Below, piece after piece: positions 28,701 through 63,894 of a stretch of DNA of 64,000 nt. The notes below the pieces were generated by a model. That model ran no database searches and was not told where the DNA came from. It was given only the letters and a program-made list of their open reading frames with translations. The position numbers and the translations under genes are program-made. The number at the start of each line of letters is the position of its first letter. The stretch's first letter is position 1. The DNA is from Undaria pinnatifida. Its lineage: Eukaryota > Sar > Phaeophyceae > Laminariales > Alariaceae. The stretch is taken from assembly GCA_012845835.1 (NCBI GenBank), contig JABAKD010000009.1, forward strand, positions 9,420,330-9,484,329, written 5' to 3'.

Positions 28701-31700
28701 TCGTTTCGTGTCGTGTCGTGTCGTGACGTGACGTGACGTGACGTGTCGTAACGTGTCGTGTCGTGTCGCCATGTGACTTATCCCTTGCCCTGTTCTCGAC
28801 AGGCCGCGTGCAGATCGACAAGAGAAAGAAGAAGTGCCCGAGCTGTAATGAGATGAACCCGATGTCCGTCAAGGTGAGCGAGGCGTTTTCGGCCGCATAC
28901 TGGCTTCTGCTCGCCCTTCTTCGCCGGAACAAGTCAAATCTTGGCAATGACTGTTGCCGTAAAGCAGTCGTTTTTGCGCTTCTTTGCATTGCTTTGCCTT
29001 GCTTTGTGCTACTGTTCTTTGGTTTGCTTTGCTCTGCCTCGCGGTTGCTATGCGGTACGGTGCTTTGTGTTGCTTTTGCGCTTTTTTTTGTGCTTCTTTG
29101 TGCTTCCTTGTGCTGCTTTCCGTTGCATTGTGCTACCTTGTGCTGCTTGCCGTTGCATTGTGCTACCTTGTGGTGCTTTATTTTGCCTTACCTTACTTGG
29201 CCTCGTTTGGATTTGCTTTTGGCGTGCTGATGGCGTGCTGATGCCTTGCTTTGCCTTGCTTGCTTGCCTTGCTTTGCCTTGCTTGCTTGCCTTGCTTTGC
29301 CTTGCTTGCTTGCCTTGCTTTGCCTTGATTTGTGGTTATTTGTGCGAACTTGTTGCTGCTTCGTGCTTTGCGTCTCCTTGCGTTTTGTTCTTGTTTTTTC
29401 TTGTCATTTTTTTACGAAGATTTGCAGAGAGTGTGATACGGTCTTTCCGGTGGGCGCCCGGCTGGACTCGGCGGTGACGAGCGAGGAGCTGCGAGAGAAG
29501 TTCAACTTCGAGCCGGAGTTCAACAAGGACGGTACGCCGATGGTAAGTCGCAATTCATATCCCACTGCTCTCCACCCTCCCTCCATTTCTCTCTTGCTTG
29601 GTGTTGGCCATGACGGTTTCGTTGGGTTGGCTGTCTGTCTTGTATGTCTGTCCGTCTGTTTTGTCTGTTTTGTCTGTTTGCCTGCCTGCTGCAAAAAATC
29701 TTTGACCGCCTCCACTCACCCCACGCGTGTTTTACCGCGCTGGACCGTGCCGGGCCTCACCTTGCCGCCTCCACCCTGGCGCCGCTGCCGAATGCGTAGC
29801 TGAATGACAAATACTAGAACCGTTCTTTTTTGTTGTGTTTATTTTCGTTAAACTTTTTCATGTAGCAGATCGAGAAAATGCTAAAACCGTTTTTTTCTGC
29901 CGTGATATCTTTTCGTTTGTTTTTTTTCTTCGTGTGGCAGATTGAGAAAATCTTGGGGAGACGCCCCCTCAAGGAGCCGGATCCGGACGACGGGGACGCG
30001 GTGAGGGAGGGATGAGATGAGGGAGGGGTGAAGGAGGGGTAGGACCTCGGGGGCGGGTGAGGGAAGAATGGGACGGGGGGGGAGGGCGGGAGAGGTGTGA
30101 CCGGGGGAGGGTGAAGAAGGGATGCGACGGGGGGGGGGGAGCACATGGGACGGGGACGGACGGGAGGCAGGGATATGGGACAGGGACGGGGGGGGGGGGG
30201 CGGTTCAGAGGGATAGAGGCACAGACAGATGTTTAGAGTAGTACGGCTGCTCGCACTGACATCGGCAGGGAAAGAAGCACTGCAAGTGTTGCAACTGCAA
30301 TGTAAATAATTAATCGCTGGTCACTGATAGGGACAGCTTACGCTATACCTACAATGGGACTCGAAGGGTGCGCCAGCTAGCGTTGGGCTGCGAAAGCAAC
30401 TGAGTTAAATCGACACACGACGCGTATGAAAATACGCGGAAGTGTGGTGAGCTAAAGCTTTATTTTTCCCCGTCCGCCGCAGGATAAAAAAATAAAACAA
30501 AAAAAAAAGCTGGTTTGCAGTTTTTCATCGACCCAAGTAGAAACATGGTCCGTCGAAATGCTCCGTGCTCGACGGAAGCAGGAGGAGCACCTGTATATGT
30601 GTATTTCTCTGTTGCTGCCGCTTCTGCTGCTGCTCCTGCTGCTGACTGCTGACTGCCTCTGCTGACTGCTGTTTCTGCGAACTGCAGCTGACGCTCTCAC
30701 CTGTTTGTTCGTTTGTTGTTTGTCTGTTTTGTTGTTCTTTGGTCTTGTGCAGATTGCGGTGCTCAAAAAGCATCATAGGGCTGCCCATTACGGGCACCAC
30801 TACGAGTGCTTGGTAAAATTCAAGGGGGTCGCGTACAACAAGGTACGGCACTGACTGCCCTGCGTGCAATTTTCACATAGTTTCAGGAGACGTTTGTATT
30901 CGTGCTTTCGGTTTTGTTTTCGTGAAACCGCTTGAACCGTACGGAATCAAATCGATATTGTAACACGACTCTCGACGCTTCGAGTGCGTTGTGTTGTGTC
31001 GCGCGCGCCAATATTTTGCTGGTCCCATACATGTGACACTACATAGCCACTTGACTATTTAGGCTAGTGGGTAGTGCTGTAGTCCACGTGCATAACCGAC
31101 GAGTATACTTCGGGGGGGTTGATAAATGCTTTTTGACAATTTTGAGCTTGCCATTATCGGTGGCATGGATTTTGAATGGTTACGTTGACGTTTTTTACTG
31201 ATGTTGCGGCAGCGGTTGGCAACATTCGTTGAATGGTACCGTTGATGTTGTCATTGCTCACTGCCCCCCCCGTCCCCCCCCCGTCCCCGTCCCCTGCCAG
31301 GTGGAATGGATGTCCGATCTGGAGATCCGATCTCTCGGGATGGTGGCGTCGCGAATGCTAACGAACTATGTCAAGACCAAGGAACGAGAGGAGCAGGAGA
31401 AGGGGCCAGTAGAGGATGACGACAACTTCGACCCCGCGTACCTTGAGGTGAGTTACTTTATATTGTGACGATGTGTGGAGGCGTGAAAAGATTGCCCGGG
31501 GGCAGGGGTCGAGTTGGATGGGGTGGGGTGGGGTGGGGTGGGGTGGGGTGGGGTGGGGTGGGGTTGGGTGGGGTGAGGTGGGGTTTAGTGGCGTGGGGTG
31601 GGGTGGAGTAGGGTGGGGTGGAGTAGGGTGGGGTGGAGTAGGGTGGGATGGGCGGGGAAACGCTCTTGCTGGCCGCCGCTTACCCCCCCCTTCCCCCTCG

Positions 31701-63894: not shown

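Follow-up and report, generated by a model that had tools for sequence, protein, structure and literature searches.

The gene examined in the Undaria pinnatifida window (the whole stretch of 64,000 nucleotides that was analysed) is best read as encoding one ATP-dependent nucleosome remodeller of the CHD type, with a bromodomain and a PHD finger inserted in its second chromodomain, that corresponds in brown algae to the oomycete protein D; the probability of this reading was put at roughly three in four. An earlier note on this DNA had placed the bromodomain and PHD finger between two chromodomains, and both were indeed found downstream of chromodomain 1. However, they are better read as an insertion within chromodomain 2, since strand 1 of this domain appears, from its sequence, to be encoded by exons 6-7 and the remainder by exons 14-15.

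The gene model within the window comprises 36 exons on the forward strand (21934-63894; Table 1), with GT at 36 of 36 donors, AG acceptors before exons 2-36 and no internal stops, the start codon (ATG at 21934) having been picked by eye. Translation of these exons, i.e. a splice-checked reading of the DNA, yielded 2121 residues. The gene had previously been delimited as 30753..63894, and the exons in this interval were confirmed to join in one open frame with splice sites in place and no internal stop. This span nevertheless cuts the gene, as exons 1-4 are located upstream (which the exon numbering of the earlier note itself implied) and 63894 represents a splice donor (phase 2) rather than an end. 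In extended coordinates, which continue the window numbering beyond the window end, exon 37 (65142-65217) carries the CHD motif on as EFQDMDIDSILERK, which corresponds to CHD1 QEMDIDEILKRA. Exons 1-41 (to 68768) were shown to be free of stops over 2293 residues, and 14 more candidate exons lead to a stop at 85752. The gene thus probably begins near 21934 and continues beyond the window to this stop, spanning ~64 kb and specifying a protein of very roughly 3,400 residues.

The introns of exons 1-41 measure 289-6055 bases, with 32 of the 40 being of phase 0. Because unrelated exons would often join under these circumstances too, phase agreement represents weak evidence for a single gene; the statement that all exons join in phase therefore holds as regards the open frame, while its use as proof of one gene was dropped. 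Joins between extended coordinates 69417 and 70719 are uncertain, and those across 69417-85752 are treated as provisional because one exon measures 20 bases and the open frame shifts at 70541, in a stretch of 14 consecutive G residues. The shift could stem from an error in the homopolymer length or from a choice of splice site.

Table 1. Features of the remodeller gene in window coordinates, with residue numbers of the translated model
Feature	Position	Strand	Basis
Exon 1: ATG, Q-rich start, first CxxC-x10-CxxC motif (residues 111-128)	21934..22747	+	Reading of the DNA
Exons 2-3: second CxxC-x10-CxxC motif (residues 283-300)	28803..29542	+	Pfam, sub-threshold only (zf-tcix 0.026)
Exons 4-6: chromodomain 1 (~residues 337-400), linker, apparent start of chromodomain 2 strand 1 (FDPAYLE)	29941..31447	+	Position and motif; strand-1 segment fit
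Exon 7: apparent remainder of chromodomain 2 strand 1, then beginning of the insert	34924..35058	+	Joined-query comparisons; segment fit
Exons 9-10: bromodomain 1 (residues 519-603, first residues in exon 8)	37578..38924	+	Pfam E 3.2e-18
Exons 12-13: PHD finger (residues 641-684; first Cys pair ends exon 11, 40251-40346)	40945..42050	+	Pfam E 2.6e-6; ligand pattern
Exons 14-15: later strands and helix of chromodomain 2 (residues 719-753)	42808..43935	+	Pfam Chromo E 1.7e-12, profile positions 14-52
Exons 19-20: PDZ-like module (best match residues 938-975)	47034..49151	+	PDZ_6 E 0.0006-0.004, sub-threshold; PICK1 PDZ E 0.02
Exons 23-24: stretch proposed as NUMOD1-like	52211..53466	+	No profile support
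Exon 25: low-complexity linker, acidic and glycine-rich	54141..55255	+	Translation
Exons 26-36: SNF2 ATPase, Helicase_C, start of CHD C-terminal bridge; goes on past the window	55686..63894	+	Pfam SNF2-rel_dom E 3.9e-74, Helicase_C E 7.1e-28; PDB CHD1 E 1.6e-121

The earlier note had considered each domain to be backed by key residues. This was borne out for the bromodomain (65.9 bits; Pfam cut-off 21.7), the PHD finger (27.8 bits; cut-off 24), chromodomain 2 (Chromo, PF00385; 47.5 bits; cut-off 25.1; profile length 53) and the SNF2-rel_dom/Helicase_C pair, all of which scored above their Pfam cut-offs, whereas the PDZ-like module fell below its cut-off, NUMOD1 was not found, and chromodomain 1 was assigned by position and motif. 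The bromodomain was shown to retain the asparagine of its CKVFN motif, the PHD finger its ligand pattern, and the SNF2 motor the usual helicase motifs, the motor being intact. A second bromodomain, encoded beyond the window, carries an asparagine at the expected place (LYNQ); in both bromodomains this asparagine is presumably the acetyl-lysine-binding residue. Of the putative tandem chromodomains before the motor, the second is recognised by profile and the first by motif only: chromodomain 1 gave no PF00385 match in Pfam, where only Chromo_MIT1 was returned (E 0.049), and residues 337-480 alone produced three PDB matches at E<=10, none of which was a chromodomain. The PDZ-like module matched PDZ_6 at E 0.0041 and 0.00059, under the 27-bit cut-off, with the PICK1 PDZ domain as its best PDB match (E 0.021). 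The NUMOD1-like assignment, and with it DNA reading by NUMOD1, was not supported. The stretch concerned, a resemblance noted by eye only, drew no match at E<=10 from any Pfam, PHROGs or NCBIfam family (HMMER filters drop most matches above ~0.1), and the six PDB chains that it matched at E 0.065-1 include none titled as a nuclease module.

Comparison of the motor with solved structures in the PDB placed CHD1 chains first, CHD4 ninth and ISWI tenth among the best 60 of 89 matches. CHD remodellers often end in a SANT-SLIDE-type DNA-binding domain, a type of domain that often escapes profiles; in exons 35-41 of the kelp gene, Pfam recognised neither such a domain nor any other known module, returning only DUF3140 (E 0.87). 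Further downstream, C-terminal pieces, joined provisionally, were found to match PHD (E 2.6e-6), PHD_NSD (E 3.9e-11), zf-HC5HC2H (E 9.7e-10), PHD-1st_NSD (E 4.6e-8) and the second bromodomain (E 3.1e-14) in Pfam. The latter, followed by an acidic/basic tail, lies at extended coordinates 81565-85752, and the two probably close the same gene. A bromodomain scan of the genome (511,146,479 bases in 68 contigs) yielded 37 matches, among them one exon for each bromodomain of this gene (E 8.4e-8 and 9.0e-4).

The domain layout had been put forward as undescribed, a claim that fails because the same architecture was listed in 2014 in 'A multilocus timescale for oomycete evolution' (BMC Evol Biol; PMC4030286), a study of 18 genomes including Ectocarpus and diatoms. 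Its Table 2 gives, for 'Chromodomain-containing protein (D)' (PITG_03401), the order [Chromo], Bromodomain, PHD, Chromo, [PDZ], SNF2, Helicase_C, PHD, [PHD], PHD-like, PHD, where square brackets denote a domain that is missing or non-significant in some species; per-species holdings are absent from the table. The kelp order matches this entry from [Chromo] through Helicase_C, with both bracketed items being sub-threshold here, and the provisionally joined C-terminal pieces likewise present a PHD followed by the PHD-like zf-HC5HC2H, so that the likeness extends to both sides of the motor. As this order is listed for one oomycete protein, the one-gene reading is supported, and the transcript is taken to be single. 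The notion of one protein combining acetyl, methyl and DNA readers with a motor is accordingly upheld, by the open model and the oomycete order, for the readers (zinc fingers included) and the motor, but not for DNA reading by NUMOD1. We infer that the kelp protein is orthologous to PITG_03401, the two having been matched by listed domain order. Compared with protein D, the kelp gene adds another bromodomain close to the C-terminus, together with two short CxxC-x10-CxxC motifs that precede chromodomain 1 (21934-29542) and are absent from the listed architecture. For the last PHD of the table, the kelp gene exhibits only a degenerate cysteine pattern, as judged by eye.

Literature searches on the architecture retrieved the layout from PMC4030286 only, and not from the accessible sections of PMC3145265, PMC4751559, PMC5378177 and PMC6118821. 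They returned no functional study of the layout, with PITG_03401 and PITG_10083 being named, within the literature searched, only in PMC4030286, whose accessible sections make no mention of nesting within chromodomain 2 for protein D. The nesting of the bromodomain-PHD pair, not the layout, may therefore be new, within a limited search that left subscription journals mostly outside its reach.

The insert comprises ~260 residues and would separate strand 1 from the remainder of chromodomain 2. With the insert omitted, residues 94-157 of the joined query aligned in one piece to a human CHD6 chromodomain (2epb; E 6.1e-5), the second of 58 PDB chains at E<=10; the join was trimmed by the analyst's choice, 261 residues being omitted for the PDB comparison and 265 for Pfam. 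The top chain, CHD5 (6guu; E 1.4e-7), aligned in two pieces, of which the strongest (19.2 bits) set the later part of chromodomain 2 (719-753) on the first rather than the second chromodomain of CHD5, while the weaker (153-218; 15.9 bits) spanned the join and fell on the second. Many non-CHD chromodomains (SUV39H1, CBX) matched the later part of chromodomain 2 alone. Furthermore, an 18-residue segment representing strand 1 of CHD6 fitted best at residues 429-446 (score 33). Among 5000 shuffles each, 15 attained this score when the entire model was scanned and 4 when the scan covered residues 337-720.

It is distinctly less probable that the domains are arranged as beads on a string, with a self-contained chromodomain 2 running from ~residue 714 behind a diverged strand 1 and with the strand of exons 6-7 being a coincidence or a part of chromodomain 1. 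Joining raised the Pfam Chromo score from 48.6 bits (profile positions 13-52 of 53) to 52.6 bits (2-52 of 53), a gain of only 4 bits over what the native piece already attains, and the residues MEVVDEQ directly before YLVKW might pair as a short strand. However, the CHD6 strand-1 segment, which fits best at 429-446, scored no higher than 4 in the region adjoining YLVKW and the remainder of the domain (661-722), and the CHD6 chromodomain aligns across the join. In a paralogue of the same genome, moreover, the like strand (FFDPSLIQLDRVLD) directly adjoins LLVKW.

This paralogue emerged from a genome-wide search that returned 64 SNF2 matches; 24 other clusters were grouped by eye, and 10-kb stretches, reaching ~9 kb 5', were taken for 20 of these. 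The chromodomain 2 query matched 3 of the 20 stretches at E<=0.001 (L020, L024 and L033). In L033, located on the minus strand of contig C29, one open stretch encodes strand 1 together with the remainder of chromodomain 2, uninterrupted, and the CHD6 fragment matched across both (E 2e-7), while the strand-1 stretch of the nested gene itself matched weakly (E 0.04). L020 is not informative on nesting, as its strand 2 starts directly after an acceptor, and L024 is likewise uninformative. The bromodomain query found nothing better than E 0.8 in the 20 stretches. Nine pieces of the L033/L035 motor match that of the gene under study (39-90% identity over 18-54 columns; E<=0.01), and this minus-strand locus presents itself as a CHD with two chromodomains. 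We infer that it belongs to the protein (B) type (PITG_10083), for which PMC4030286 lists PHD and PHD-like fingers and, in its accessible sections, no bromodomain; the two would share a pair of chromodomains before a CHD-like motor. The paralogue differs from the nested gene in its uninterrupted chromodomain 2. In collections of viral and prokaryote contigs, 1 and 16 stretches, respectively, fitted a pattern, none of which was confirmed as a relative.

That two or more neighbouring genes (reader, motor and C-terminal PHD/bromodomain) were wrongly joined in the model is improbable. The model was built from DNA alone, its predominantly phase 0 introns render the joins uninformative, and tiny or frame-ambiguous exons occur at 69417-70719. 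Against this stand the listing of one oomycete protein whose domains before and after the motor come in the kelp order, the stop-free run of exons 1-41 across introns of 289-6055 bases, and the donor at the end of exon 36, beyond which exon 37 continues the CHD motif (QEMDIDEIL in CHD1, EFQDMDIDSIL here). Least probable, and by some distance from the nested reading, is that the PHD finger and the following chromodomain correspond to the PHD-chromodomain 1 unit of CHD3-5, with the first chromo-like stretch as an unrelated addition: CHD5 (6guu) does align query residues 304-422 (PHD plus chromodomain) in a single stretch and its strongest joined-query piece does lie on its first chromodomain, but the chromodomain-like stretch, linker and strand 1 are all upstream of the bromodomain, CHD6 fits across the join, and Pfam (residues 1-1238) detected no further chromodomain from 753 to the motor.

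As regards placement among CHD remodellers, the nested gene shares a motor and, probably, tandem chromodomains with CHD1 and CHD3-5. To our knowledge, these proteins are without a bromodomain, and the PHD fingers of CHD3-5 precede both chromodomains. With respect to type III proteins (CHD6-9, Kismet and ChdC), the CHD6 chromodomain constitutes the best match across the join, and the C-terminal motifs of the kelp gene may resemble those of CHD6-9, CHD7 among them. No type III motor was present among the best 60 of the 89 PDB matches of the motor. In Dictyostelium, loss of the type III protein ChdC leads to wider nucleosome spacing within genes (PMC5378177).

The proposed mechanism follows from this arrangement. 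Tandem chromodomains would precede the motor as in other CHDs, with the bromodomain-PHD insert emerging after strand 1 of chromodomain 2, and a long linker with the PDZ-like module would lead to the motor and then to a C-terminal array (PHD, NSD-type fingers, extended PHD and second bromodomain). The motor would be predicted to slide or space nucleosomes, and the bromodomains and PHD fingers to recognise histone tails in acetylated and in methylated or unmodified form, with mark binding possibly being passed directly to the motor via chromodomain 2. In yeast Chd1, the free enzyme is hindered in binding DNA by its tandem chromodomains, of which chromodomain II touches ATPase lobe 1; when ATP binds, the pair changes position (PMC6118821). 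Because the bromodomain-PHD pair would grow from the very domain that contacts ATPase lobe 1 in Chd1, it could couple histone marks to the motor. We tentatively suggest that its position in the turn after strand 1 wires an acetylation/methylation sensor into the autoinhibitory gate, generating a mark-gated motor in one chain that is perhaps ancestral to stramenopiles, a possibility to which we assign well under even odds. If the nesting holds, it would provide a natural test of histone-mark control over a CHD motor within one polypeptide, and this test would lie in brown algae and oomycetes. In these groups, multicellular or filamentous growth arose separately from that of animals and plants.

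Several introns were observed to contain repetitive DNA. Intron 6 (window positions 31741-34760) holds a decayed LINE-like element with a reverse-transcriptase-like reading, the 3' part of which shares 77% identity with positions 47366-47801 of intron 19. The latter intron contains a retroelement fragment (47361-48600) that is 86-87% identical to copies at 14891-15072 and at extended coordinates 78187-78599. The recurrence of related retroelement fragments indicates that the introns of this gene took several insertions. Introns 15 (44401-44900) and 20 (49561-49740) are largely filled by 5-base tandem repeats, identified by eye as being of the tgttg/tgctg and ccaca kinds.
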